A program made the translations under genes and the position numbers. From Planctomycetota bacterium (lineage in GTDB: Bacteria > Planctomycetota > Phycisphaerae > Phycisphaerales > SM1A02): a stretch of DNA of 64,000 nucleotides. Below are positions 49,999 through 64,000 of this stretch, piece by piece. How positions within the stretch are numbered: position 1 is the first letter of the stretch; each line of letters starts with the position of its first letter. The stretch is from contig QWPW01000009.1 of the NCBI GenBank assembly GCA_003671025.1, forward strand, positions 1-64,000, given 5' to 3'. The notes beneath the pieces are model-generated. The model worked only from the letters and a program-made list of their open reading frames with translations, was not told the DNA's origin and searched no databases.

Positions 49999-50558
49999 GT
50001 GACGCGCACGCGAGCCACGGTCGCGAGATCGAACGCGTGTGGGTTTTGCGAGAAATGCCAGTGATTCCGCACAACGCAGAGATTTGGGAGATCGAGCAGG
50101 GATATCTCGCGGCAACCGATGCGCATGAACACGCGCGTGCTAACGACGGCGATTCACCTGCGCCGTTGACTGGTCGTTTGCGACGAGTCGAAGATTCCTC
50201 CGGCGCGTCGCGCTACTTCCACACCGTCAAGACCGGATCAGGACTCGTGCGCATCGAGCATGAACGCGAGCTGTCGCGCGCAGAGTTTGATGCGGCGTGG
50301 CCGCACACCGAAGGCAGTCGATTGACCAAGACGCGCTCGCGTGTGCGTTGCAGCGGAGAAGGCGGCGAAACGCTGGTGTGGGAGATCGATCGCTTTCACG
50401 CATTGCCGCTGGTGATGGCGGAAGTCGAGCTCACGAGCGAAACACAACGCGCGCCATTTCCATCGTGGCTTGCGCCGCTGATCGTGAAGGAAGTCACGCT
50501 TGATGCGCGCTATCGCAACTCGTCGCTTGTGTTCAAGGGGATGCCGCGCGAGGCTTAA
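49995..50558 (+). CDS. CYTH domain protein (triphosphate tunnel fold)
   Basis: A 187-residue protein. REIERVWVLREMP at the start is the EXEXK-type CYTH entry (here E-I-E-R-V), and ERELSRAEFDAAWPHTEGSRLTKTRSRV, then WEIDRF and MAEVELTSE, give the charged strands that line the tunnel. CYTH proteins hydrolyse inorganic or nucleoside triphosphates. The GTG at 49995 overlaps the holB stop (GTGA). A CHAD protein, its usual fusion partner, is encoded at 7.95 kb. Confidence 0.8.
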   Translation: MSDAHASHGREIERVWVLREMPVIPHNAEIWEIEQGYLAATDAHEHARANDGDSPAPLTGRLRRVEDSSGASRYFHTVKTGSGLVRIEHERELSRAEFDAAWPHTEGSRLTKTRSRVRCSGEGGETLVWEIDRFHALPLVMAEVELTSETQRAPFPSWLAPLIVKEVTLDARYRNSSLVFKGMPREA

Positions 50559-50590
50559 TGAGAGCCGCGTGTGCGTGAGCCATGCGGCGA

Positions 50591-51544
50591 CTAGCGCAAA
50601 TCTTTCGCTTGCGGCAGATCGCTCAACGTGGCGATGCCGAACACGCGCAGAAACTCAGGAGTCGTGCCGTACAACATGGGGCGACCGACCTCTTCAGCGC
50701 GTCCGACGATCTTGACCAGTCGGCGTTCCATGAGGCTCTTGAGAATCTCGCCGCACGCGACGCCGCGAATCGCTTCGAGTTGTGCGCGCAGCATCGGTTG
50801 GCGATAGGCGATGATCGCCAGTGTTTCCAACGCGGCTTGCGAGAGTCGCGTTTGCGCGCGCGCGCCCTTCATGCGCATCAACACCGGTCCGTAGGCCGCG
50901 ATGGTGAGCATCTGACGGCCACCGGCAAGACTCTCGATGCGAAACGCGCGATTGCCATCGGCGTACTGGCGATTGAGCGTGTCGACGGCTTCGCGCACGA
51001 GTCGCAACGCCTCGCGTCGACGCCCCGCGATGGCCGCGCTTTCGCGTGAAGCGATGTTTGACGGCGCGCCTTCAGTCGTTTCGACGGCTCCCGCGTCGCT
51101 GTCACTCTCTTTGCCCGCGCGCCTCTCTGTGGCGACGGCTGCAGGCACGAGCCCGAGGACTTCGGCGATGCGACCATCCGAAATCGGGCGATCGGCAAGG
51201 AGAATCGCGGCCTCGACGCGCAGCGGAAACGGCATCGCAAACGAGGGCAACTCGGGATCGTCAAGATTGATTTCGAAGAGCGAAGGGTGATCCGCTTCAG
51301 GCGTTTGCGCAGATTTGCGCCGACGCTTGGGCGCGCGCTCGGGCGAAGCGGTCGCCGCGGAAGCATCTGCATCGATGGTGCTTTCCGAAGTCGGCGCGTT
51401 CGATTCGTCGGTCGATTCATCGGTTGAATCGCCGGTCGAATCGTCAGTCGAATCGCCGTCACTCGCGGCGTTTGCAGTCGGCGCGTCCGTGCCGATGGTG
51501 GCGAGGACCTCGTCAGTCGTCGCGCTCGCTTCATGCTCAATCAT
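50591..51544 (-). CDS. scpB: Segregation and condensation protein ScpB
   Basis: Subunit of the SMC-ScpA-ScpB chromosome condensin. The C-terminal 200 residues carry the two winged helices: MPFPLRVEAAILLADRPISDGRIAEVLGL, REALRLVREAVDTLNRQY, QAALETLAIIAYRQPMLRAQLEAIRGV and LVKIVGRAEEVGRPMLYGTT. The first ~85 residues are a disordered acidic DSTDES-type repeat followed by a basic patch, longer than usual. Start ATG 51544. scpA is not adjacent. Confidence 0.9.
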   Translation of the reverse strand: MIEHEASATTDEVLATIGTDAPTANAASDGDSTDDSTGDSTDESTDESNAPTSESTIDADASAATASPERAPKRRRKSAQTPEADHPSLFEINLDDPELPSFAMPFPLRVEAAILLADRPISDGRIAEVLGLVPAAVATERRAGKESDSDAGAVETTEGAPSNIASRESAAIAGRRREALRLVREAVDTLNRQYADGNRAFRIESLAGGRQMLTIAAYGPVLMRMKGARAQTRLSQAALETLAIIAYRQPMLRAQLEAIRGVACGEILKSLMERRLVKIVGRAEEVGRPMLYGTTPEFLRVFGIATLSDLPQAKDLR

Positions 51545-51670
51545 GGGGCGCAGAGTACCACAGCACTCACGCGAATCTTGTGCGAAAACCGCGGCAAAAC
51601 GCTGCGAATTGCTGCGCGAATCGATAAGCGAGTTGGTGTTGCGCGCTGATCACGCGCGTTGCGAAAAATT

Positions 51671-52081
51671 TCAGCGGCGCGTCGAACGCGCGATCGAGAC
51701 GCGTGCTCGTGCGAGTCGTTGACGATGCTCGTTGTCGACGCGCTCGCTTGGCGTGCCGCGCGTGAGTGCCGAGGCGTTCGCATCGGCGAGCTCTTTGTCG
51801 GCGGCTGTTGCATCGATGGCGGCAGGAAGCGTGACGCCGTCCGCGAGAATCGTGAGCGTGCCACCGTTCATCTGCGCGAATCCGCGATCGAGGAGAAAGA
51901 CGTCGGCCGCGCCGGAGCCCTTCTCGATACGCAGACTGCCTTCGCCAAGACGCACCAGAAACGGCGCGGCGCCGGGCATCACGCCGCGTTGTCCATCCCA
52001 CGCCGAAAACTCGACATAGGTCGCGTCGCAATCAAGGACGCTTTCAGTGGGGGTAACAACGGTGCAGCGCAGTCCAGCCAT
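51671..52081 (-). CDS. atpC: F1Fo ATP synthase epsilon subunit
   Basis: A 136-residue protein: LRCTVVTPTESVLDCDATYVEFSAWDGQRGVMPGAAPFLVRL is the beta-sandwich of epsilon, and ADVFLLDRGFAQMNGGTLTILADGV completes it; the C-terminal helices are Arg-rich. It connects the rotor to catalysis. Normally atpC follows atpD, but no other ATP synthase gene is here. Start ATG 52081 has no clear Shine-Dalgarno. Confidence 0.85.
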   Translation of the reverse strand: MAGLRCTVVTPTESVLDCDATYVEFSAWDGQRGVMPGAAPFLVRLGEGSLRIEKGSGAADVFLLDRGFAQMNGGTLTILADGVTLPAAIDATAADKELADANASALTRGTPSERVDNEHRQRLARARVSIARSTRR

Positions 52082-52531
52082 GGGGGGCGAATAGTACGGG
52101 CAAGGCCGCGCGGGCTCAAGTCACTCGGCGGTGGGTGGTGGATCGGTCCGGAGATTGCACAACGCAAACGCGTGGCGACGAGCGACGATCAATCGCTTCA
52201 TGCGCGGAACGAGGGCTGAGTCGTTCGACCAAAAAAGACGCCGCCCAAACTCGACTTGCATCGGGTTCGGGCGGCGGGCGGAAAGGGACACTGTGAGCGA
52301 TTTGCGCGTCGTGAGCGATGCTTTCGCATCAATCACGGGCGCGTATTCGGAACGGCGCGAATCACTCTCCGAGGATTGGCGGCGTTCCAGTGTCCTAGTG
52401 CCTCTGGCCTGAGGTCCCTCATGGATCTCAGTGTGTTGCCAGGGCTCCCTTGCGGGATTGCGGGGTCCCTTTCGGGATTGTGCTGATGTGCGTTCGAGAC
52501 GTCTTTGGTTGTCTCGAGCGCGATGATTGAT
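52082..52531. other. Intergenic region with terminator and short repeats
   Basis: No gene seen. It holds the minus-strand terminator at 52231-52275 and two copies of TCCCTTnCGGGATTG near 52447-52482 that can each form a small stem. Confidence 0.45.
52231..52275 (-). terminator. Rho-independent terminator (minus strand)
   Basis: Read on the minus strand, GCCGCCCGAAC pairs with GTTTGGGCGGC (one mismatch) across a 14-nt loop, then GTC and six T. It probably ends the transcript of the PEP-CTERM-like gene. Confidence 0.75.
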
Positions 52532-53263
52532 TTAGCGACGACGACGGCGGTTGAGAAGTCCCGCGCCACCAAGAACAGCGAGGACGCCCGGAGCGGGAAT
52601 CGCCACGCCTGCGCCACCGAGTTGGGTGGAGAACGAGGCGGTGTCGCCCGCCGAGAGCACGAAGCTCAGGGTCACAGCGATGTTGGTGCCGAAGGTCGGT
52701 GCGGGCAACGATGGGGTGGAACCACCGAAGGCTGCCGAACCGATCAATGTTGTGCCAGTACTATTTCGGTTGACATTCACAGGCGCCGCCAAGAGCGAGT
52801 TCACCACACTTGCTCCCGAAGTGGCGAGCCAGCATGGTGCGGTGTCGACGGAGCGGAAGTAGCCAGCGCCACTCGTAAACAGCACCGCGGAAATGGAGCC
52901 GTTGAAGAGTCCGCTGAGCGGCTCGAATGCTGCGGTTGGCAGCGAAAGCGTGATGGAAAAGGTCATTTCACCGCCGCTGAGATTCTGAATCGACATCGAT
53001 CCAGACTGCATCGCGGTGTCAGTGGCGCTGGCGGCACTGAAGTTGTAGTTCACGTTCCACAGCCCATCGCTCGCAGCGACGGAACCGGTATACGTTCCCA
53101 TACCGCTGGCAGAAACGGAGTTCGGATTCAGGTTGACCTGTTTACCGAAAGCCCCAGAGTTGACAGTGAGTGTCATGGGAGGCGCGTCTGCGAAGGCCGG
53201 TGCTGCAAGAGCACAGACCGCCACAGCCGCGGCAAGCCGCGTACTGTTTGAAAAAGACAGCAT
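52532..53263 (-). CDS. Exported protein with PEP-CTERM-like tail
   Basis: A 243-residue protein with a signal peptide (LAAAVAVCALAAPAFA), a beta-rich Ser/Thr/Gly domain, and a C-terminal IPAPGVLAVLGGAGLL followed by five Arg. This is the PEP-CTERM sorting signal as used in Phycisphaerae (PAP variant, helix, Arg cluster), so it is probably handled by an exosortase and ends up on the surface. ATG 53263 has AAAAGGGA upstream. Possible adhesin or exopolysaccharide-associated protein. Confidence 0.8.
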   Translation of the reverse strand: MLSFSNSTRLAAAVAVCALAAPAFADAPPMTLTVNSGAFGKQVNLNPNSVSASGMGTYTGSVAASDGLWNVNYNFSAASATDTAMQSGSMSIQNLSGGEMTFSITLSLPTAAFEPLSGLFNGSISAVLFTSGAGYFRSVDTAPCWLATSGASVVNSLLAAPVNVNRNSTGTTLIGSAAFGGSTPSLPAPTFGTNIAVTLSFVLSAGDTASFSTQLGGAGVAIPAPGVLAVLGGAGLLNRRRRR

Positions 53264-53383
53264 GTTGTAAATCCCTTTTCGTTTGGAACCGAGTCGGTTC
53301 ATCCCTCTTCAAGGCCAAGTCGGTTCCCGCCGACAAGGCCTCCCTCGACCACGCACAAGGCAATGGTCCTTACATCTTCGAAT

Positions 53384-54484
53384 CTAACCCAAGGATTGCT
53401 CGGAGCAAATCTCTTGAGCAATTTCTTGCGCATCAGTTAAGTTCGCTGCCGCAAAGCTCGTCCGAGAAGGTGGCGCCGCGACAATATCGAGCCCGTCGTA
53501 CCGCTCGATCGCGCGCATGAGCACCTCGCGAATCGTCTCGAGCGAGGTCGCGAGCCGAATCGCCTCTTTGATGGGCTTGATGTGTCCCATCGACTTGCCA
53601 AAGCGCGCGATCTGCTGGCGCATGCAGATGAGTGCGTAGCCCGTCCCGTCGTATTGCTCGCTCAATTGCAGATGGCGCAACGCGACGCGGAACTTGTCGG
53701 CGAGGCAGGGTTCTGGCGACGCAACTCCTGTGGTGAGCAGAGCGTGCGTGCGGCGGAACATCCACGGAGTTCGCAGCGCGGCGCGCGCGATCATGACTCC
53801 CGCGCAGCCGGTGGTATCGATGAGTTCGCGCGCATGTTCGGGCTCGGAGACGTCACCGTTTCCGATCACGGGAATGTTGGGCACCGCGTCGACGACGAGG
53901 CGAATCGCGTTCCAGTCCGCCTTGCCCGAGAAGAATTGCACCGTGTAACGGCCGTGCACGGTGACGGCGGCGATGCCTACGTCGGCCAGTTGCCGCGCCA
54001 GTTGCGGCGCAACCATGTGTTCGGGATCCCAACCCAAACGCATCTTTGCGGTGACGGGCACGCGGCCGTTGCTGTGTTTTTCCACAGCCTTCACGATGCG
54101 CGAGGCGAGCAGGGTGGTGTTGCCGCAGTCGCGCAGCAACAGACTGCCGCCATCGCGCTTGGCGACTTTGTCGACGGGGCAACCCATGTTGATGTCAACG
54201 ACGCGCGCGCCTTTGTCGACCGCCCACATTGCAGCTTCGGGCAACGGGTCATCGGAGTTGCCGTAGAGCTGCATGCCCGCGGGTTGGTCGAACTCGTTGG
54301 TGCGCGCGAGGTCGAGGGTGCGCGAAGTCTCTCGTTGAATTGCGCGCGAGCTCAGCAGATCGGTGTACGCAATGCCAACGCCGCCGAGCTCGCGACAGAG
54401 AATGCGAAACGCGAGATCGGTGTATCCCGCAATCGGCGCGAGAAGAACGTTTGATTCAAGTTGAACAGGGCCAATGCGGAGCAC
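53384..54484 (-). CDS. dus: tRNA-dihydrouridine synthase
   Basis: Flavin enzyme that reduces uridines in tRNA. Family motifs in order: LAPIAGYTDLAFR, AGMQLYGNSD, VVDINMGCPVDKVAKRDGGSLLL with the active Cys, PVTAKMRLGWD, VTVHGRYTVQFFSGKADW and IPVIGNGDV. CAGVMIARAAL follows. About 366 residues. The start is uncertain: GTG 54484 begins just at the domain, while ATG 54553 or 54628 would add 23-48 unconserved residues. It lies downstream of the DUF3299-like gene on the same strand. Confidence 0.92.
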   Translation of the reverse strand: MLRIGPVQLESNVLLAPIAGYTDLAFRILCRELGGVGIAYTDLLSSRAIQRETSRTLDLARTNEFDQPAGMQLYGNSDDPLPEAAMWAVDKGARVVDINMGCPVDKVAKRDGGSLLLRDCGNTTLLASRIVKAVEKHSNGRVPVTAKMRLGWDPEHMVAPQLARQLADVGIAAVTVHGRYTVQFFSGKADWNAIRLVVDAVPNIPVIGNGDVSEPEHARELIDTTGCAGVMIARAALRTPWMFRRTHALLTTGVASPEPCLADKFRVALRHLQLSEQYDGTGYALICMRQQIARFGKSMGHIKPIKEAIRLATSLETIREVLMRAIERYDGLDIVAAPPSRTSFAAANLTDAQEIAQEICSEQSLG

Positions 54485-54711
54485 TGAGAGAGAGTAGCGG
54501 TTCTGTGCGCCTGAACAAAGCGCGGCAAAGCTCGGTGAGGCGCGCGTGAACATGCGCGCGTGCGAGTGCAGCGGCTGATCGTTCGCAGTGAAACCATCGG
54601 TTGGATAATGCCTTGCGACGATGCTCATGAGCGCGCGTTGAGCGCATGCACCGATGCGTCGGTGTTGCAACGCTGTTTGCGCACGCCAACTGCGCACATC
54701 ACTTAGGTGCA

Positions 54712-55575
54712 CTACTTGGCGACAAACACCGCGTCTTCGATTCGATAGAGACCGATGAGGTACCCCGCGGCCTCGAACACTTCCACGCGCATTCGTCCGC
54801 GAAATGTGCCAAAGCGAAGCAAGTGCAGTCCCTTCATTTCCATCGGCTCGCGCAGCACGAGATCAATCGCGTCGAAGGGAGTTGGTGGAAGACCAACGCA
54901 ACAGCCATCCCAACGGTTGAGCGTGAGCATCAAACTCTTGGTGCGATCGACTCGCAGGGGCGTCGAGTAGTAGCCGGAGATTTCGACGACGGTGTCGTCA
55001 AGCAGACGAATCCACGGCGGCGGCGTCACTGCGAGTTGCGCGGGATCGATGTACGCGCTGGCCGATGTCAGCAATTCCCACGAGATGCGATAGGGATCGT
55101 CGTCGCGACCGCCGCCGATCACGCGAAATCGTTTGTCCAGTTCGATGGTGCGTTCATCGATGCGGTGCAGGACTTCGTTGGGCGTGCGCGTGTCGTGAAG
55201 CAGTGCTGGTGGTGTGCGAGTGGCAACGAGATTCGTCGGCGCGATGGGCGGGCCATCTTCGCCGAGGAGATCGATGTCTGGCCGAGGCGCGTCGACGGGC
55301 GCGGTGTCCGCGTTGCTTGTCGCGTTGGACTCACTCGTTGCCGCAGTGCCTAACGCGCTGGCGCTCGGTGAAGACTCCTGACTCGTGATGTCATCACTCG
55401 TGTCTTGATCGCGCCTGTCGTGATCGTTTCGCGTGTCCGCGGCGCTTCCCGCATTGGTGTCATCGTTCGATTGACTTGGCAACGCCACGAGTGCGGAATC
55501 ACGCGTCGCGTCAGGTTGCAGCATCCACATCGCGAGGATGATCAGCAACGCGACGCCGATCCAGAACCATTTCAT
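54712..55575 (-). CDS. Membrane-anchored DUF3299-like protein
   Basis: A 287-residue protein with an N-terminal anchor (MKWFWIGVALLIILAMWML), a long Ser/Asp/Thr-rich linker (about 25-120), and a C-terminal domain. That domain shows WELLTSASAYIDP, VVEISGYYSTPLRVDRTKSLMLT, WDGCCVGLPPTPFDAIDLVL and GTFRGRMRVEVF, matching DUF3299 as I know it (GY..P, CC..GPPP, G.f). ATG 55575 overlaps the eboF stop (TGATG), so it is translated with eboF. Probably periplasmic. Confidence 0.7.
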   Translation of the reverse strand: MKWFWIGVALLIILAMWMLQPDATRDSALVALPSQSNDDTNAGSAADTRNDHDRRDQDTSDDITSQESSPSASALGTAATSESNATSNADTAPVDAPRPDIDLLGEDGPPIAPTNLVATRTPPALLHDTRTPNEVLHRIDERTIELDKRFRVIGGGRDDDPYRISWELLTSASAYIDPAQLAVTPPPWIRLLDDTVVEISGYYSTPLRVDRTKSLMLTLNRWDGCCVGLPPTPFDAIDLVLREPMEMKGLHLLRFGTFRGRMRVEVFEAAGYLIGLYRIEDAVFVAK

Positions 55576-57026
55576 CAGCGGCGCGCTCGCGTGAGAAATG
55601 TGCGCGTTGCTGCGGTGAATTCGGCTTCGACCGCGCGTGCGTGCGTTGCTCCCAACGTGAGCGCGAGAATCGCGTCGCGCACGCACTCCATCGGAAGGGA
55701 GACATCGAGAAATGGATCAGGAAGATTTCCGATGAGCACGGGATCGAATCCGCTCGGTTGTTCGACGCGACCATGCGAGCCGCGCACGAGCGCCGCATCG
55801 AGCGGAATCACGTCGAGGTTCGTGCGCAGTCCAAGACGGCGCATCGCGAGCTTGCGTAACACGCGACCCTTGGGCCAGAGCAATGTGGGGTCAAGAAACA
55901 ATTCGCACGGGTCGTAGCCGGGCTTGCGATGGATGTCGACGGTGCGCGCAAAGTCGGGCGCCTTGGCGTCATCGTTCCACCAGCCGTAGGCGAACCAACG
56001 GTCGGACGCGCTCACGCACACGATGTCGCCTGCGCGCGCGTGATCGAGTCCCGCCGCGGCGCGCGTGTTGCCAAAGAGTGTGTGCTCGACGCCATCGACC
56101 GCGGCAAGAATCGCCGCGACTGGCGCGATGTCAGCAGCATCGCGCACCGAGACGTGCGCAACTTGATGATCCGCAACGGCGAAGGCGCGGCTGTGTTCGA
56201 GATCAAGAATCTCGCGGCCATCTTCGAGGCGGACCGCGAGGAATCCCGCGTCGCGCAAGACGCGGTTGAGCCACACGGCATCGCGCACGGGGACGATTCC
56301 ATACTCGCTCACGATGACCGGCTGCACGCCGAGTTGATCGCACAGATCGATCATCGCGCCGGCGATGCGATCGATTTCGCGCAACTCGTTGCGAATGGAA
56401 GTGTGTCCCGGCCCAAACTTCTGCAACGCGTAGTCGAGGTGCGGCAAGTACGACAGCGTGAGCGTGGACGGCGTGCGTTCGAGCAGTCGTTGCGTCGCGA
56501 GCGCGATCCAATCGCTGGACTCGATTCCTGCCATCGGTCCCCAGAACTTGAACAACGGAAATTGCCCGTGCTCTGCTTGGAGTTCGTCGCGCAACGACGC
56601 AGGCGTGGTCAGGCAATCGGGGAGCTTGCGTCCGTCGGCCTTGTAAATCGGCCTCGGCGTGATCATGACGTCGGTGCTCGCGTGCATCGCGTACCACCAG
56701 CACGCGTTGGCGCATGTGAAGGACGGATCGATGCGACGCGCGGTTTCCCAAACTTTTTCGCCGCTCACGAGGCGATTCGATTGTTTCCAGAAGTGCACTT
56801 CGCCCAGCGCGCGATCGTGCCAACCGTTGCCCACGATTCCATGCGCAGTTGGCGCGAGTCCAGTGAGCATTGTCGATTGCGACGAACACGTGACCGCGGG
56901 AAGCGGTGGTCGCATCGTGCGCACTCCGCCGCAGCGCTTCGCAAATGCGCGAATGCGCGGAGTCGCATCGCCGATCAAGTTGGGCGAGAGCGCGACGATG
57001 TTGAGGACGCAGACGCGTTGAGCCAC
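55575..57026 (-). CDS. eboF: EboF-like alkaline phosphatase/phosphodiesterase family protein
   Basis: A 483-residue protein closely following EboF: ALSPNLIGDATPRIRAFAKR, LPAVTCSSQSTMLTGLAPTA with the nucleophile Thr, HGIVGNGWHDR, DPSFTCANACWWYAMHASTD, VMITPRPIYKADGRKLPD, YLPHLDYALQKFGPG, VSEYGI, FAVADHQVAHV and RTVDIHRKPGYDPCELF. EboF belongs to the nucleotide pyrophosphatase superfamily and to the ebo cluster, which in cyanobacteria helps scytonemin precursors reach the periplasm. The GTG start at 57026 is the only one near the domain. Coupled to the DUF3299-like gene. Confidence 0.88.
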   Translation of the reverse strand: MAQRVCVLNIVALSPNLIGDATPRIRAFAKRCGGVRTMRPPLPAVTCSSQSTMLTGLAPTAHGIVGNGWHDRALGEVHFWKQSNRLVSGEKVWETARRIDPSFTCANACWWYAMHASTDVMITPRPIYKADGRKLPDCLTTPASLRDELQAEHGQFPLFKFWGPMAGIESSDWIALATQRLLERTPSTLTLSYLPHLDYALQKFGPGHTSIRNELREIDRIAGAMIDLCDQLGVQPVIVSEYGIVPVRDAVWLNRVLRDAGFLAVRLEDGREILDLEHSRAFAVADHQVAHVSVRDAADIAPVAAILAAVDGVEHTLFGNTRAAAGLDHARAGDIVCVSASDRWFAYGWWNDDAKAPDFARTVDIHRKPGYDPCELFLDPTLLWPKGRVLRKLAMRRLGLRTNLDVIPLDAALVRGSHGRVEQPSGFDPVLIGNLPDPFLDVSLPMECVRDAILALTLGATHARAVEAEFTAATRTFLTRARR

Positions 57027-57116
57027 GCATCAATAGTAATGGCGTTGAAAGTCCCGCGCGCATGCACGGATGCATGTGCGCGGGACCGGTGGTGACAGCG
57101 TCAATGGCTCGGCGCA

Positions 57117-57920
57117 TTACGGAGTTGGTTGAAAGAGGATGCGAGCGTCGTAGGGTTTGCCGTCGCGATACACGGCCATCACCGCGAAGTTGGGATCGAT
57201 CTCGATATGCCACGCGGATCCATCGACTTTGAAGTCGAGCGTCCGCACACCGATGTTGGCCGCGTAGTGCGCCGCGAGATCGAACGGACCCGCGATGCGC
57301 AGTTCAGTTCCAGAGTCGAGTTCGTAATCGCCGCGTGTAGGAACATCAACGCCGTCGGCGGTGATCACGAGTTGCGAGTACGCCGATCGATCCGGCATCA
57401 CCCGATGATTTGGCAGCAGCAACGTTGCATCGAGATGCGTTTCGGTCGTGCTGGTTTCGACGTGAGCTGTCGCGACGAGTAACTCGTCGCAGACGAATTT
57501 CTCGATGTGCACATCCGAGCGGTCGATCGATAGCGTCGCTGGTTCTTCAAGCGGAGGATGGACCTCGTAGTACAGCCCTGTGCAGTTCCACTGGACATAG
57601 AACCCGTCGTCGAAATCTCCGGTCCAGAAAGCGCAGAGCTTGAAGAAGTAAAGATCGATCGGGTTCTCGGGAATCGGCCTGAAATCCGGAGGCAACGACT
57701 CCACGCCTTCTCCGTGAACGGCGGCGATGGCGCCCGCACAGACCAACATGTTGAGATTCACTGGAACGCGCTCGGTGCTGTTGCAGCCGGTGACGAGAAC
57801 CACTCCGCTTAAGGCCAATGATCCAGTCAAGGCCACCGCTCCAATGGCGGAGACGTTGATGATTGCGTGCGTGGCTTTAGCCCAAGCGCGTGAGAAAACA
57901 GTCAATGCATTGATAGACAT
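57117..57920 (-). CDS. Lipoprotein of a three-gene tandem family, member 1
   Basis: A 267-residue protein with a long signal ending in a lipobox-like VLVTGC. The C-terminal 130 residues are shared with members 2 and 3: CDE..VA, STTETHLDATLLLPNHRVMP, DRSAYSQLVITADGVDVP, YELDSGTELRIAGPFDLAAH, YAA..GVRTLD and WHIEIDPNFAVM. It looks like a beta-sandwich that carries an added N-terminal domain. No known family. ATG 57920 was chosen from the shared leader, where the purine-rich RBS is GAAAGGGAAC. It lies 90 bp upstream of eboF. Confidence 0.7.
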   Translation of the reverse strand: MSINALTVFSRAWAKATHAIINVSAIGAVALTGSLALSGVVLVTGCNSTERVPVNLNMLVCAGAIAAVHGEGVESLPPDFRPIPENPIDLYFFKLCAFWTGDFDDGFYVQWNCTGLYYEVHPPLEEPATLSIDRSDVHIEKFVCDELLVATAHVETSTTETHLDATLLLPNHRVMPDRSAYSQLVITADGVDVPTRGDYELDSGTELRIAGPFDLAAHYAANIGVRTLDFKVDGSAWHIEIDPNFAVMAVYRDGKPYDARILFQPTP

Positions 57921-58049
57921 CTTGTTCCCTTTCTTCAGAAAGTTAGACCCAGAAATCTGGGAGTTGTGTGTGATGTGATCGCGTCGCGCGATCAGCGTGC
58001 GCATCTTCGCAGCAGCGATTGCCACTTCTTCATTTCACCACAGTAATAC
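57921..58049 (-). promoter_or_regulatory. Shared leader, copy 1
   Basis: Conserved with the leaders at 58.94 and 60.01 kb: a GTATTACTG box (58049-58041), a GATCGCG/GCGATC segment, a hairpin CCCAG-nnnn-CTGGG (57948-57961), then a purine-rich RBS. The distance from box to ATG is about 121 nt. Confidence 0.65.
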
Positions 58050-58145
58050 CGCTCGGATTTTCACTTGTCGTTAATGATCTTCAGCGCGCAGGCGCAAGTC
58101 GGAACAGATCCGTTGACTTGCGCCATTGCTCGAGCGCGCTACGCC

Positions 58146-58940
58146 TCAGTGCGGCGGAGCGAAGAGGAATCGCGTGTCATGCACATCGTGATTGCGCAGA
58201 ATCGTCATGACCGCATAGTTGGGGTCGATCTCGACGTGCCACTTCGCGCCGTCGGCCTTGTAGTCAAGCGTGCGCACGCCGAGCAACGCGGCGTAGTGCG
58301 CGGCGAGATCAAACGGACCAGTGATGCGCAACTCGGTGCCGACATCGAGTTCGAACTCGCCTTCTGTCGGAACATCCTGGCCATCTGCAAGGATCGTGAG
58401 GCCCGCGTACGCCGAGCGATCCGGGAGCGTGCGCCGATCGGGTAGAACGATGCTCGCGTCGAGATGCGTTTCGGTCGTACTCGCATTGCTGTAAGCGAAG
58501 GCTTTGACTCGTTCATCGCACGAGATCTTGTTCAATCCCGCGCCCGAGCCATCCGCGGTGTCCAGCATCATTGGACTTTCGCGCACGACCGCTGGGTAGA
58601 GCGAGCCTTCGCAGTTGAGCTGGACATAGCGCACGTCATCGGGCTCGCCGTTGCAATACACGCAGAGTTTGTACCGCTTGTTGGCAAGTTCCAAGTCGTC
58701 TTCCTTGCACAGTTGATAGCCCGTCGGCGGTGCGGAAATCCCTGCCGCCGAAATCTGCGTCATCAAATCGTTGCACAACGACATGCCAACCTCGACAGCA
58801 ACGACAAAGCCAGCACATCCAGTGATCACCGGTAGCGTTGTCACGAAGAGTGAACCCAGCACAGCACCAACCAACAGTCCTCGACGTGTACCGAAAGATG
58901 AAGCAAACGATGTCACAAACGATGAAGTGAGCATTGGCAT
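58146..58940 (-). CDS. Lipoprotein of a three-gene tandem family, member 2
   Basis: A 264-residue relative of members 1 and 3 with lipobox LPVITGC, a Cys-rich middle (LCKEDDLELANKRYKLCVYCNGEPDD) and the shared C-terminal domain (CDERVKAFAYSNASTTETHL, DASIVLPDRRTLPDRSAYAG, TELRITGPFDLAAHYAALLG, WHVEIDPNYAVMTILRN). The middle CVYCNxEP block is shared with member 3 but replaced in member 1. ATG 58940 follows GGGAAAGGA. Function unknown. Confidence 0.7.
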   Translation of the reverse strand: MPMLTSSFVTSFASSFGTRRGLLVGAVLGSLFVTTLPVITGCAGFVVAVEVGMSLCNDLMTQISAAGISAPPTGYQLCKEDDLELANKRYKLCVYCNGEPDDVRYVQLNCEGSLYPAVVRESPMMLDTADGSGAGLNKISCDERVKAFAYSNASTTETHLDASIVLPDRRTLPDRSAYAGLTILADGQDVPTEGEFELDVGTELRITGPFDLAAHYAALLGVRTLDYKADGAKWHVEIDPNYAVMTILRNHDVHDTRFLFAPPH

Positions 58941-59055
58941 CACAAGTCCTTTCCCCAGTGTTCTGGGAGTTGAGTGTGTTGTGGCCGCGCGATGCGGTCA
59001 GCGCGTGCATGATCGCATCACCTTCGTGTGCTTCATCAATTTGACGCACTAATAC
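58941..59055 (-). promoter_or_regulatory. Shared leader, copy 2
   Basis: GTATTAGTG box at 59055-59047, hairpin CCCAG-TGTT-CTGGG (58954-58967), then GGGAAAGGA before the ATG. Box to ATG is 107 nt, exactly as in copy 3. Confidence 0.7.
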
Positions 59056-59186
59056 TGCGCGGAAATTCTGTCGCGCTCTCGGTGTGCGCGTTCACTCACC
59101 ACAAATGATTACGCAACAGATCGCACCGCGCGCGTTCAGACGAACGCACGCGATGCGATGAGTCGAAAGTTGTTCGCGGCGCCGCG

Positions 59187-60008
59187 TTACGGTTGAGGCG
59201 CAGTCAAGAATCGCACGTCGTACAACTGGTCATTGCGCAGCACTCCTATGACGGAGCACTCGGCATTGAACGCGACATGCCATCGCGCGCCATCTGACTT
59301 GTAGTCAATCGACTCGATTCCGAGCGCAGCCGCGTAATGCGCCGCAAGTTCGAATGGTCCCGCGATGCGCAGTTGGGTTCCTCGCGCGAGCTCGTACTCA
59401 CCAGATAGCGGCACGGACATTCCATTGGCAGTGACGGTGAGTTCTGCGTAGAGGCCGAGATCAGGGAGCGTCCGATCGTTCGGTAGCACGATGGTGGTGT
59501 CGAGATGAGTTTCGCTCGAGTCTGCTGAAGCAAACGCCAACGCATCGAGGCGTTCGTCGCATCCGACACCTCGCACTTGTGGCTGCGAGTCTTGAAGCGG
59601 CGACTGTTGCAGCGCGTTCGATTCAAACGTGACGCTGCGGTACATCCCCGTGCATCCAATCCGGATGTACTCAGGTGCACCGGGCTCATCGTTGCAATAC
59701 ACGCACATGTCGATCATTCGCCCATGACCTACATCAAACGGTTGGCGCAGGCACAGTCGATAGCCGTTGGGAAGCTCGGAGACCGGAAGACCGAAGATGC
59801 GCGCGATCATTGGTCTACACGCGAGGACGACAGTCTTCACGGTCTCTGGTGTTTCGTCGCACCCCGTCAACATCGATACCGCGCCGAGGCCAACGCCAAT
59901 GCAACCAACCGCAGCAGACGCGAGCAATCCTCGGTGAAACAAGCCTCGCCGAGACAGGCCTCGGTGAGAGCCTCGTCGAGACAAACCTTGTGAGATAAAA
60001 AAAGACAT
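59187..60008 (-). CDS. Lipoprotein of a three-gene tandem family, member 3
   Basis: A 273-residue relative. Its N-terminus is unusual: an Arg-rich repeat LSRRGSHRGLSRRGLFHRG, encoded by short DNA repeats, precedes the hydrophobic part and the lipobox SMLTGC. This could favour Tat export. The middle has MCVYCNDEPGAPEYIRIGC; the C-terminal domain has GCDERLDALAFASADSSETH, LPNDRTLPD, TQLRIAGPFELAAHYAAALG and WHVAFN. ATG 60008 follows AAAGGACTGCG. First of the tandem set. Confidence 0.7.
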   Translation of the reverse strand: MSFFISQGLSRRGSHRGLSRRGLFHRGLLASAAVGCIGVGLGAVSMLTGCDETPETVKTVVLACRPMIARIFGLPVSELPNGYRLCLRQPFDVGHGRMIDMCVYCNDEPGAPEYIRIGCTGMYRSVTFESNALQQSPLQDSQPQVRGVGCDERLDALAFASADSSETHLDTTIVLPNDRTLPDLGLYAELTVTANGMSVPLSGEYELARGTQLRIAGPFELAAHYAAALGIESIDYKSDGARWHVAFNAECSVIGVLRNDQLYDVRFLTAPQP

Positions 60009-60123
60009 CGCAGTCCTTTCCCCGGCTCAACCGGGAGTCATGTGTGATGTGACCGCGCGACGCGATCAACATGCGCATCATGGACGCGTGAAAGAGCGAG
60101 TTCCGAATTCACCACACTAATAC
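60009..60123 (-). promoter_or_regulatory. Shared leader, copy 3
   Basis: GTATTAGTG box at 60123-60115, hairpin CCCGG-CTCAA-CCGGG (60021-60035), then a GGGGAAAGGA site. The fourth stem pair is G-C where copies 1 and 2 have A-T, a compensatory change. Confidence 0.7.
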
Positions 60124-60207
60124 TGACACGAATTGTGAGGCGCGAATTGCCGTGAGGGAAGGCGCACGAGATGGAGTCGTGCCGCCGCGACTACTCGCGA
60201 CAACCGC

Positions 60208-61245
60208 CTAACTGCCAGCCACGAATCGCTGCGTCACTCGCGTGGCAACAAAGCACACAAGGCATACTGCCGCGAAGGCGGGTAGTCCCGCACACGCCAT
60301 CGCGAGTGCATCGATCAACGCGAGACATGCGATCCACGCCGCGATCGCCCGCGGAGTCGAACTCGGTGACGCTGCGATCCATCGTCGTGCGCGCACGATG
60401 ACCACGGTCATGATCACGCCGATTGCAACAGCGACAACAGCGAGTGCCAGACGCTGCGCATCCAACGTTGCGCGTTGCGGGATGAACAACAACATCGTCG
60501 CTGTGACGATGACTCCAGTGGCGCCGAATCCGACATTGATCATCGTGCGCAGCGGGGTTGTCGTCGTCGAAGAGGCGATGGCGTGCACGTCAACTTCGCG
60601 TCGCGCGACGATAGAGAGCGCGAGTGTCCACAGCGCGAGCATGATCGGCAGCACGATCACGCCGCTGAAAAAAACGGCGCGCCAGTCGTCGCCTGCGAAT
60701 GCAAGCATGGTGATCAACGACGCATTCGCGCGGCACATTGCCAGCAACAGCGTGCTCCATGCACGGCGCGTGTGCATCACGTTGTAAAGAACAACGAGTG
60801 TCGCGAGCACGATCGCAGCGATCAGCGCGGGCATCGATGACGACGACGCAGCGAGTGCGACAGAGAGCGTGAGTAGGGCAAATCCTGCAACGAATGCGTG
60901 TGCACGACGCACATCGCCGCGCGGAATCGGACGCTGCGCGCGTTCGTGTGCATCGATACGCGCATCGAACGCATCGTTGAGCGCCATACCCGCGATGTAC
61001 CCGAGCACGGGCGTAAGCAGCACGAATGAGCGCGACGGATCAGTGACGCAGGTCCGCAATGGCGCGATCAAATCGTAGATCGTTGGTGAAGCAGCGGTCG
61101 CGCTCTCGATCGTGGCCGCGCCACCGCGCGACGCAACGCTTGCTCCCAGTGCCGCGCCCGCAATCGCGTTGCTGATCACGGTCGGAAGATTGGAGATGCG
61201 AAACAACTCAAGCCATGCGCGAAGGTGTTGACGCGCGTGCGTCAA
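60208..61245 (-). CDS. eboC: EboC-like UbiA prenyltransferase family protein
   Basis: A 345-residue integral membrane protein with 8-9 helices. The UbiA Asp motif is NDAFDARIDAHERAQRPIPRGD, followed by helices with GFALLTLSVALAASS and YNVMHTRR; the start HLRAWLELFRISNLPTVISNAIAG is typical of EboC. In the ebo cluster it sits beside eboE. The TTG start at 61245 overlaps the eboE stop (TTGA), with GAGG seven bases upstream, so the two are coupled. Prenyl-transfer activity of EboC is unproven. Confidence 0.85.
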   Translation of the reverse strand: MTHARQHLRAWLELFRISNLPTVISNAIAGAALGASVASRGGAATIESATAASPTIYDLIAPLRTCVTDPSRSFVLLTPVLGYIAGMALNDAFDARIDAHERAQRPIPRGDVRRAHAFVAGFALLTLSVALAASSSSMPALIAAIVLATLVVLYNVMHTRRAWSTLLLAMCRANASLITMLAFAGDDWRAVFFSGVIVLPIMLALWTLALSIVARREVDVHAIASSTTTTPLRTMINVGFGATGVIVTATMLLFIPQRATLDAQRLALAVVAVAIGVIMTVVIVRARRWIAASPSSTPRAIAAWIACLALIDALAMACAGLPAFAAVCLVCFVATRVTQRFVAGS

Positions 61246-62393
61246 CCGTCAACCTCGAAACCAGCCGCGATCAACGCGTCGCGCGTGAACTGCAGCTCTT
61301 TCGCGATTCCTGCGGCGAGATCGCGTTCGCGCAGATGCGGCGGCAACACGCTCCACGCGTAGGTTTCGACTTCAAAGCATGGCGGGTCAATGTGTGAAGC
61401 CGCAAGCAGCGCGGAAGGAATCTCTTTCGAAGTCGTTCCCAATCGACCGATCGATTCGAGATACACAGGCACATGAAAGTGCGTGCGCCAGAAACCATCG
61501 AGCATTGCATCGAGCGCGAGATCGAGGTCGCTAAAGAACCGCGCGCGTCCCGAGCCTTCCAACACACACGTTTGATGGAGGTAACGCGCTTCGGCGAATT
61601 GCGCGAGCTCAGCGATTTCTTTGGGCGCGCCGTGACACGCAAGCGCGCTCGAAACTTGGACCTTGCCCACGCGAATGCCATGGCGCGCATAGAGCGCGAG
61701 CGCTTCGTCTTGCTCTTCAAACATCACGGCGCTGTGGCAAATGTCGTGACACACACCAAGGTGCGCGCGAGTTTCGTCGCTGCTGAAACACTGATCAAAC
61801 AGCGCAACGACATGTTCGGCGCGATCAAGCATGCAACCCGGCTCAGGTTCGAGATCAACCGTGATGCGCACACCAGTGGTGTCCTCGAGCTGTGCGAGCT
61901 TGCTTGCGATCCATTCAAGTTGCGAGGTCGCTAATCCCGCACTGGCGCCGCAACCTTCGTCGGTGAAGTCGGCGCGCCAACCGATAGGAAGCGTCGAGAT
62001 TGAAGCAGTGGGTGTTCCGGGCTCGACGAGTGCGACGAGAATTTTCGCGAGATCCAATGTGTACAGCGATCGATTGGGATCGGCCCAGTGTGGGTGATAC
62101 ACGCGGGTCTTCACGGTCTCGCCGTGAAAGTCGCCGTAGGGAAATCCATTGATGGTGCGCACCGCGAGATTGCGTGATTCGAGCCAATCGCGAAAGCGCG
62201 CGATGCCATCGGTCTCGGTGAGCAACTCGCGCGCACTCTGCGCCGAGAGCCACAGTCCCAATCCCAACATCGTGTTGGGGCAGGCGAGTTCGCGCACGCG
62301 TGTTGCATGTTGCTCGAGCATCGCCTTCGTGCGCGCCAGCGTGTCGCCGGGATGAACATTGGTGCAGTAAGCAAGTGCGGCGCGCGGTTTCAT
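61242..62393 (-). CDS. eboE: EboE-like TIM-barrel protein
   Basis: A 383-residue xylose-isomerase-like TIM barrel of the EboE (metabolite traffic) type: LAYCTNVHPGDTLARTKAML, LGLGLWLSAQSARELL, VRTINGFPYGDFHGETVKTRVYHPHWADP, TVDLEPEPGC, LGVCHDICHSAVMFEEQ and HFHVPVYLESIGRLGTT. The metal-ligand-like Glu/His/Asp positions are kept. The start is ATG 62393, with GGAGCGG upstream. It leads the eboE-eboC pair. The gene assignment is firm by motif; the reaction is unknown. Confidence 0.88.
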   Translation of the reverse strand: MKPRAALAYCTNVHPGDTLARTKAMLEQHATRVRELACPNTMLGLGLWLSAQSARELLTETDGIARFRDWLESRNLAVRTINGFPYGDFHGETVKTRVYHPHWADPNRSLYTLDLAKILVALVEPGTPTASISTLPIGWRADFTDEGCGASAGLATSQLEWIASKLAQLEDTTGVRITVDLEPEPGCMLDRAEHVVALFDQCFSSDETRAHLGVCHDICHSAVMFEEQDEALALYARHGIRVGKVQVSSALACHGAPKEIAELAQFAEARYLHQTCVLEGSGRARFFSDLDLALDAMLDGFWRTHFHVPVYLESIGRLGTTSKEIPSALLAASHIDPPCFEVETYAWSVLPPHLRERDLAAGIAKELQFTRDALIAAGFEVDG

Positions 62394-62422
62394 CACCGCT
62401 CCATTGTGGCAGAGTTCATGCC

Positions 62423-63526
62423 ATGATTGGCGCTATGAACTCTGTAAACGCTCTCGTGACTCGATCACTCGTTGCTGGTCCACTCGTGGCGCTTTCCCTC
62501 GCAGCGGTCGCGCCGCTTGAATTGAGCGGATGTTCCACAGGACAATCTGCGCCCACTCAAATCACGTCCGCGAGCAGCAGCGCGGACAAGCGCACAGAGG
62601 CATGTCGCGCATACGTGCAAACACTCTCCGACTCCGAGAAAAATAGGGGTTTGCGACCACTCACCGATGGCGAGCGCACACAATGGATTTTCGTGCGCGG
62701 CGATCGCCCGGGACTTTTTCTGCGTGACATGGATGCAGCAACGCGCGCGGCGGCGCTTGAGTTTGTCGACTCGCTTCTCTCCGCCGCGGGGCAAGAACAG
62801 TGGCGACTAATTCGGGTGATCGAGACCATCAACGGGAAAAACGAGAAGGATGCCGGCGTCACTCCACCAAGTTTCGGCGACGACCTTTACACGATGATGC
62901 TCTTCGCTTCGCCTGACGCAGACGCGTGGGCGGTGCAGTTTGAAGGTCATCACTTTGTGCTCAATGTCGCGAGTGTTCATGGAGTGGTGACGGTCACGCC
63001 TGCGTTCACTGGTGCGTCCCCCGTCGCGGTCTCGAGCGGAGTTGATGTGGGCAAGCGTCCGCTAGGAGCAGCGGTCAACGCCGCGTTTCAACTGGCAAAT
63101 TCATTGACTGTGAATCAGCGCGCGACTGCGCGAATTCTCGATGGAACTCCTGCAGATGTGTTGTTCGCGGTTGGTTCCGACGCGAAGAAGCCCGACATGC
63201 GCGGCGTGAATCGACGCGACATGACCGCAGCGCAACAAGAGCTCGTCGACAAACTGCTGGCCTCGCACGCAGGCTTGCTCGCGGAGGAAGTCGTCAACGC
63301 ACAACTGCGTCAATGGCGCGAGGAGTTCAACGGCGAGTTGACCTTCGCTTTCGTGGGCGACACTGATTTGAACAAAGCGCACTACTACCGCTTGACCTCG
63401 CCGTGCTTCACCATCGAGTACGACTGCACCAATGGCGATGCGAATCACGTGCACTGCGTGTGGAGCGATCCGAGCAACAATTTCGGCGGCGATGCGCTGC
63501 GCGAGCATTTGCACTCGGCGCACTGA
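62423..63526 (+). CDS. DUF3500 family lipoprotein
   Basis: A 367-residue protein with a signal ending in LELSGC (lipobox). It follows the DUF3500 pattern: WIFVRGDRPGLFLRDMDAATRAAALEFVDSLLS, WAVQFEGHHFVLNVASVHG, VTPAFTGASPVAV, AQQELVDKLL, and the C-terminal HYYRLTSPCFTIEYDC...HVHCVWSDPSNNFGGDALREH. His-rich end motifs suggest metal binding. ATG 62423 or 62435 are both possible. Divergent from eboE; function unknown. Confidence 0.82.
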   Translation: MIGAMNSVNALVTRSLVAGPLVALSLAAVAPLELSGCSTGQSAPTQITSASSSADKRTEACRAYVQTLSDSEKNRGLRPLTDGERTQWIFVRGDRPGLFLRDMDAATRAAALEFVDSLLSAAGQEQWRLIRVIETINGKNEKDAGVTPPSFGDDLYTMMLFASPDADAWAVQFEGHHFVLNVASVHGVVTVTPAFTGASPVAVSSGVDVGKRPLGAAVNAAFQLANSLTVNQRATARILDGTPADVLFAVGSDAKKPDMRGVNRRDMTAAQQELVDKLLASHAGLLAEEVVNAQLRQWREEFNGELTFAFVGDTDLNKAHYYRLTSPCFTIEYDCTNGDANHVHCVWSDPSNNFGGDALREHLHSAH

Positions 63527-63562
63527 AACACGCTTGTTTTGCGGGCATTCGCGGAGAATCGA

Positions 63563-64000
63563 TCAGCGCGCGGCGTCGACCAGTTGCCGGACCACATCAA
63601 GTCCTGTGGCCGCTGCTTCAGTGCGTTCGGGATGCCACTGCACGCCGACATAGAAGCGTCGCGCGGGATCGATGATGCCCTCGATGATGCCGTCATCGGA
63701 GCGCGCAATGATTGCAAACGTGGGCGCGTCGGCCAGTGCTTGATGATGCCACGAGCGCACGGTGCCCGAAGAGAGCAGCGATCCGCGCTCCGCTTCGACA
63801 TCGTGAATCGCATCGAGTCGATGACGCTCGGCGTTAGGAATCACATCCGCAAGATGTTGAATGAGGGTGGCTCCGCGGTGCACGCCCATCATTTGCATGC
63901 CGAGGCAAATGCCCAGCACGGGTTTGTTGGGTTGCCCATCGAGTTGCTTGAGCAACGCAAACTCCGCAGCTTGACGATCAGCGTGCATGCACTCTGCCTG
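63563..64000 (-). CDS. Class I glutamine amidotransferase-like hydrolase (peptidase C26), partial
   Basis: The gene continues past the right edge; 146 residues are visible. GICLGMQMMGVHRGAT carries the nucleophile Cys, and VGVQWHPERTEA carries the catalytic His and Glu. SWHHQALAD and SDDGIIEGI are typical of the gamma-glutamyl-gamma-aminobutyrate hydrolase (PuuD-like) group. The frame is open to position 64000, so ATG 63988 is internal. Substrate not assignable from this part. Confidence 0.85.
   Translation of the reverse strand, partial: QAECMHADRQAAEFALLKQLDGQPNKPVLGICLGMQMMGVHRGATLIQHLADVIPNAERHRLDAIHDVEAERGSLLSSGTVRSWHHQALADAPTFAIIARSDDGIIEGIIDPARRFYVGVQWHPERTEAAATGLDVVRQLVDAAR

Follow-up and report, generated by a model that had tools for sequence, protein, structure and literature searches.

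In Nostoc, deletion of ebo genes retains the scytonemin monomer in the cytoplasm, such deletion mutants thereby showing a role of the ebo cluster in export, and a prenylated cyclitol-type carrier was proposed (PMC6282210, available sections). In Herpetosiphon, eboG replaces eboA, and operons of this eboG type have been described from Herpetosiphon, the Deinococcales, an acidobacterium and Thermithiobacillus; in the three planctomycetes of the same 2016 survey the ebo genes were not clustered (PMC5133447, available sections). The present analysis concerns an ebo cluster of a planctomycete from the Phycisphaerales (GTDB lineage SM1A02; assembly GCA_003671025.1), in which three tandem lipoprotein genes, here termed Lp1, Lp2 and Lp3, lie between eboC and eboF. 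The window, that is, the whole stretch of DNA analysed, comprises bases 1-64000 of contig C68 (QWPW01000009.1; 92,415 bases) from a 3.25 Mb genome that is assembled into 68 contigs and 95.9% complete.

The cluster is a complete, published eboG variant lacking eboA. On the minus strand of the window the order is eboE, eboC, Lp1, Lp2, Lp3 and eboF, and both gene order and domain scores (Table 1) agree with the first-pass annotation, which had placed the three ebo genes on one strand with three lipoprotein genes between eboC and eboF. Its description of the lipoproteins as paralogues of an unknown family is borne out as well, since identity to Lp1 is 41% for Lp2 and 35% for Lp3, and none of the three matches any Pfam model at E 1 or, meaningfully, any NCBIfam model. 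It had also taken the architecture to be undescribed, in agreement with literature searches outside subscription papers and preprints, in which none of the papers listed dealt with lipoproteins in ebo clusters; the available sections of PMC5133447 and PMC6282210 name no envelope lipoprotein. What did not stand was the term partial. A cluster that had lost eboA, eboB and eboD was suggested by the absence of these genes from the list for positions 50000-64000, but the right window edge (base 64000) cuts the cluster, the contig runs on to base 92,415, and eboB, an eboG homologue and eboD are found there, likewise on the minus strand, between 0.2 and 2.7 kb past the edge; this refutes the reading as a partial cluster, which is an artefact of the window edge. 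The full order on the contig is eboD-eboG-eboB-C26-DUF3500 (reversed)-eboE-eboC-Lp1-Lp2-Lp3-eboF. Of the genes that the first-pass annotation had proposed to look for elsewhere, eboB and eboD thus lie nearby, and EboA had no match in the genome. The same EboA search matched in Calothrix and Pedobacter and gave nothing in Herpetosiphon, a published eboG organism. Because eboD, eboG and eboB are present and EboA was not found, the locus is assigned to the eboG variant.

As in the eboG-type operon, EboD, EboG, EboB, EboE, EboC and EboF are clustered without EboA, and the D-G-B-E-C-F order is that of Herpetosiphon giganteus and of several relatives within the order Phycisphaerales. Unlike that operon, the present locus carries three lipoprotein genes in the eboC-eboF gap and two non-ebo genes between eboB and eboE, one C26 amidotransferase-like and the other a DUF3500 gene on the opposite strand. 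The Nostoc punctiforme cluster shares homologues of EboB, EboC, EboE and EboF with it, but is EboA-type, and no lipoproteins are mentioned in its text (PMC6282210). Extra genes inside an ebo cluster are also described in the available sections of PMC5133447, but those are different genes, at a different place and in a different phylum; the present ones encode a family of envelope lipoproteins, stand in tandem and have leaders of their own. In contrast to the planctomycetes of the 2016 survey, clustering of the ebo genes is plain here and in many relatives.

The eboC start overlaps the eboE stop and EboC retains the NDxxDxxxD motif; its score with the NCBIfam model NF035940 (79.1 bits) lies below the cut-off of 250. 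Four other EboC proteins of eboG-type clusters, one from the genus and three from outside it, including that of H. giganteus, also score 80.6-116.1, and the low value therefore seems to reflect a model tuned to EboC of the eboA type. EboD passes PRK06203 and fails the aroB model (208, cut-off 305), which marks it as a sugar phosphate cyclase of a lineage apart from AroB; we infer from gene position that PRK06203 corresponds to EboD. A dehydroquinate synthase search of the genome found a copy at C68:66078, within eboD, and another copy, on contig C1, passes aroB (332). EboB is 92-96% identical in eight genomes of the genus and 73-79% in five relatives outside it. The 107-residue EboG homologue has no match among the Pfam and NCBIfam models; along part of its sequence it shares 40% identity with the H. 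giganteus gene between eboD and eboB. EboE is widespread, with matches in 283 of 392 genomes of a phylum sample at E 0.001 (232 over the cut-off) and in all 16 genomes of the genus (15 over the cut-off).

The lipoprotein gene appears to have entered an older, tighter arrangement. Outside the genus, in 17 loci selected because eboC is followed by eboF as here (the arrangement differs elsewhere), the eboC-eboF gap measures -2 to 27 nucleotides in 16, whereas it spans 1029-2111 nucleotides in nine loci of the genus that carry a lipoprotein gene. For this reason the tight D-G-B-E-C-F order seems ancestral here and the lipoprotein gene inserted. The exception among the 17 is L062, from a Phycisphaerales metagenome-assembled genome (MAG), in which a second UbiA-like frame (L062:8778-9827, plus strand; 349 residues, by eye) with paired CxxC motifs occupies the gap; a CPRCG...CG insert is seen in the L062 eboC ahead of this frame and in the EboC of L061. 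In L038, L040, L047 and L049 no eboF is seen nearby.

Within the genomes searched, the family is restricted to the genus of the window species. A profile built from the three window copies matched eight of 201 genomes of the order, all eight in the genus, and a profile of ten rows matched 15 of the 16 genomes of the genus. Copy number in the genus is mostly one, with two tandem copies in genome G562 and three in the window species. No lipoprotein match was found in G568, whose contig ends in or just after eboC. The association with ebo that the first-pass annotation had envisaged thus holds inside the genus, where a family gene adjoins eboF in 14 of the 16 genomes, with eboC seen on the other side in 13 of these 14 (the G564 contig ends inside the lipoprotein gene, so that its eboC side is unseen). 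It does not hold for ebo in general, given the absence of matches from the 192 genomes of the order outside the genus and the occurrence of weak, distant relatives away from ebo genes. One of these, in G529, is 17% identical to Lp2 (E 2e-8) and adjoins genes resembling ribH, nusB and ftsY, named by eye. A 12-row profile matched 20 of 181 genomes of the taxonomic family, namely the same number in the genus (15/16) and five of 165 others, the latter weakly (E 5e-7 to 8e-4) and only over about 50 residues near the C-terminus of frames of 257-324 residues; no ebo gene was matched within 17 kb around these five. Four of 392 genomes in the phylum sample matched, two members of the genus and two weakly, and the lipoprotein gene is present at one of the 80 named EboF loci, L061, which belongs to a planctomycete MAG. 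Small secreted proteins of another genus at L190, L191 and L192 (about 7.4-8.9 kb), adjoining a Dus-like gene, share some 50 C-terminal residues with the family.

The three window copies, 35-43% identical to one another, form one clade in the tree (100/100) and share one origin. This divergence also rejects an assembly artefact as the source of the triplication. The two G562 copies (32% identical) group neither with the window copies nor clearly with each other. Median end branches of 0.75 for the lipoprotein, 0.13 for EboF and 0.079 for EboE come from different sets of rows and give a rough ratio; the lipoprotein family changes several times faster than EboE and EboF. Measured against the window species, EboC (36-53% identity in the genus) and the DUF3500 protein (51-61%) are also fast, compared with the slow EboB.

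Each lipoprotein opens with a hydrophobic leader and a lipobox cysteine, the latter invariant in 10 of 10 and 12 of 12 rows of two alignments (signal read by eye), with M, G or A at lipobox position -3 in several relatives. In several copies a pair of arginines (RR) precedes the hydrophobic segment. The relatives at L054:1219 and L056:1261 begin with MTDSWMTWAARPEELG and a long N-terminal stretch ahead of the signal region, and that of L149 is similar; the leader peptide is longer in these proteins, or else their start has been misplaced. Six further cysteines (56, 78, 93, 96, 110 and 141 in Lp2 numbering) are conserved, and 14 of the 17 rows spanning this region have all six. Two of the 17 (Lp3 and one G562 copy) lack both Cys 78 and Cys 96, which are never missing singly, and Cys 56 and 141 are both missing in the distant G529 row, which is aligned less certainly. 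Since cysteines are lost in pairs, the alignment suggests that 78 pairs with 96 and 56 with 141 in putative disulfides, which would leave 93-110 as the third.

An AlphaFold2 model built from four sequences reached a mean predicted local distance difference test (pLDDT) score of 62.6 and a predicted template modelling (pTM) score of 0.62, and its ordered regions, at about 60-120 and 156-262, are rich in beta-strands; the C-terminal part modelled alone gave a pLDDT of 82.7 and a pTM of 0.74. None of several candidate likenesses was taken as established. RCK_C (TrkA_C) proteins fill the top 20 rows of the whole-model search by a weak likeness to the C-terminal half (Z 5.3-6.8), which was not upheld by the domain alone (Z 4.2 or less) or by profile comparison (1.5% probability). 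A DAN cystine-knot match in four of 12 family members (best E 0.022) was too weak, as was Gremlin-2, a DAN-type cystine-knot protein, in a profile search of the Protein Data Bank (PDB; E 0.45, residues 88-130). The best PDB sequence match, a ribosomal L18 chain (E 0.0013, residues 166-240), was judged to be chance.

The leaders of the three window genes are alike over about 140 nucleotides (69% mean column identity) and carry a GTATTA-TG-like motif, within three mismatches at Lp1 and Lp3 and looser at Lp2. A five-pair hairpin precedes the start codon in 15 of 16 family leaders, its 3' arm ending 12-27 nucleotides before the start and followed directly, in most leaders, by a purine-rich run; the set leaves aside G564 (contig end) and G529 (unlinked gene), the stem adjacent to the Shine-Dalgarno run was taken in G563, and G556, with fewer than five pairs there, accounts for the count of 15. 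The hairpin covaries, four of its five pairs being changed on both sides among leaders. As the arms were chosen by seeking a stem in each leader, the pairing of all 75 cells is partly by construction; as fairer controls, none of 2000 arm shuffles reached 75 (mean 64), and some stem was found in 16 of 16 leaders, a share that falls to 29% for 45-mers drawn at random from the window and to 17% for leaders after shuffling. In a wider scan the same layout also preceded some other frames, including an exported gene in L162, and hence is not exclusive to the family. The window encodes a secreted protein with a PEP-CTERM-like C-terminal tail at 52532-53302 (minus strand); in its homologue from the genus, in L162, a hairpin precedes a GGGAGGG run, as in the lipoprotein leaders.

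The leader was also considered as a dispersed repeat, which was rejected, as BLAST against its own genome finds the full Lp1 leader only at itself. Part of it matches at the Lp3 leader, a 47-base part (82% matched) lies before a secreted gene on contig C48, and the remaining matches have E 0.018 or worse. The promoter-like motif of the lipoprotein leaders, GGTATTAGTGTGGTGAAATTC, recurs at L223:1501-1550, before the secreted gene on C48. Downstream of the genes, folding after Lp2 (z -2.16) and after eboC (z -1.69) is no stronger than in the coding stretch after eboF (z -2.41), and values after the lipoprotein gene in seven relatives range from -5.02 to -0.09.

We lean, with slightly less than even confidence, to the reading that this is a complete eboG-type cluster accompanied by a genus-specific accessory envelope lipoprotein acting in the outward ebo pathway. 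A role of the lipoproteins in ebo export is plausible but unproven; an envelope lipoprotein could receive or bind the ebo carrier or its cargo. A small lipoprotein gene would have entered the eboC-eboF gap in an ancestor of most of the genus, and in the window species this gene would have been copied twice in tandem, leader included. According to the hypothesis published for Nostoc, a prenylated lipid derived from a sugar, which the Ebo proteins would make at the inner membrane, aids the outward movement of a metabolite. The lipoproteins might then act further outward in the pathway as binding proteins that are anchored in the envelope, carry disulfides and consist mostly of beta-strands, made from their own promoters with translation set by the leader hairpin, and three diverged copies might widen the range of ligands bound. 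That the lipoproteins are indeed the lineage-specific, fast-diversifying receiving end of ebo export, separately expressed, with hairpin-set translation and a ligand range widened by multiplication, we consider unlikely as a whole. Several results weigh against a role in the ebo pathway. In G529, eboC and eboF are 51 nucleotides apart with no lipoprotein gene between them; the place of this genome within the genus, on which the timing of the insertion depends, is not resolved in the EboE and EboF trees. Structure searches with the whole or C-terminal model found no confident relative, which does not show that the fold is new. A consensus scan found five terminator-like sites where 6.8 were expected and no sigma-70 promoters where 1.8 were expected; as this is not above chance, leader conservation and the hairpins are what speak for separate transcription. 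Finally, non-ebo flanking genes also hold their position in the genus, DusB and ScpB in L037, L061, L170 and L172, and, in L037 and L171, two genes that by eye resemble an rRNA methyltransferase and MgtE, so that synteny alone cannot support an ebo role.

Because these non-ebo neighbours keep their places as well, it is nearly as likely that the lipoproteins are passengers, in that a surface lipoprotein unconnected with ebo and changing fast, for instance in response to phages, predators or competitors, happened to land between eboC and eboF and was kept by the stability of the region. Leaders of their own that share a promoter-like motif, itself found in part before a secreted gene elsewhere in the genome, the strong hairpins after Lp1 and Lp3, the long end branches, the relatives away from ebo (that of G529 and the weak ones of five further genomes of the taxonomic family) and the stable flanks would all fit such an origin. 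It is less easily reconciled with the retention of the gene in 14 of the 15 readable genomes of the genus, despite its splitting a cluster that is almost without gaps in relatives, or with the search of 181 genomes of the family, which matched no close copy outside the cluster. The lipoproteins might instead be envelope subunits that help EboF or the exporter mechanically, in assembly or anchoring, and bind no ligand. Their position directly before eboF in the genus, the lipid anchor and the conserved cysteines would suit such subunits, yet the cluster persists without the lipoproteins in relatives outside the genus, and EboF need not meet them at all, as those eukaryotic EboF homologues that have no signal peptide are described as most probably cytosolic (PMC5133447, available sections); we regard this possibility as quite improbable.

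Among the remaining neighbours listed in Table 1, the DUF3500 gene occurs in 13 genomes of the genus, its own included, the stated identities referring to the other 12. The C26 gene directly follows eboB, and such a gene also lies near eboB or eboE in two other genera of the taxonomic family (G360, G376).

Table 1. Features of the ebo locus, in minus-strand order; contig positions equal window positions up to base 64000.
Feature	Position	Strand	Detail
eboD, dehydroquinate-synthase-like	contig 65526-66683	-	PRK06203 497 bits, cut-off 333
eboG homologue, 107 residues	contig 65042-65365	-	position between eboD and eboB
eboB, TatD-like hydrolase	contig 64240-65040	-	PF01026 34.6 bits, cut-off 27
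C26 amidotransferase-like (gamma-glutamyl-hydrolase-like) gene	contig 63563-64219, window part 63563-64000	-	PF07722 137.9 bits (whole gene)
DUF3500 gene, lipoprotein-like signal	62420-63526	+	PF12006 214.5 bits; start uncertain
eboE, TIM-barrel protein	61242-62396	-	NF035939 392.3 bits, cut-off 250
eboC, UbiA-type membrane protein	60208-61245	-	PF01040 67.8 bits, cut-off 34.2
Promoter-like motif GTATTAGTGTGGTGAA before Lp1	60108-60123	-	
Lp1 leader hairpin	60021-60035	-	next to GAAAGGA Shine-Dalgarno-like run
Lp1 lipoprotein gene, 273 residues	59187-60008	-	lipobox LTGC
Strong hairpin between Lp1 and Lp2	59090-59186	-	folding z -5.92
Lp2 leader hairpin	58954-58967	-	
Lp2 lipoprotein gene, 264 residues	58146-58940	-	lipobox ITGC
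Motif GTATTAGTGTGGTGAA before Lp3	58034-58049	-	one mismatch
Lp3 leader hairpin	57948-57961	-	27 nucleotides from start codon
Lp3 lipoprotein gene, 267 residues	57117-57920	-	lipobox VTGC
Strong hairpin between Lp3 and eboF	57030-57116	-	folding z -3.77
eboF, PF01663 hydrolase	55575-57026	-	PF01663 184.5 bits; 71-84% identical to eboF of the genus

The eboG-type cluster was already known; what appears to be new, going by the papers that the literature searches listed, is the lipoprotein family and its place in the cluster. The clustering seen here corrects the impression, gained in 2016 from three genomes, that planctomycetes do not cluster their ebo genes. The leader hairpin, retained while protein identity is only about 30%, offers a small testable case of translational control. 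If the lipoproteins are the receiving end of ebo export, no earlier component of the envelope would have been linked to ebo in the available sections of the literature examined, and a genus with a lipoprotein built into its ebo cluster provides a direct way to ask whether such a protein binds the ebo product.

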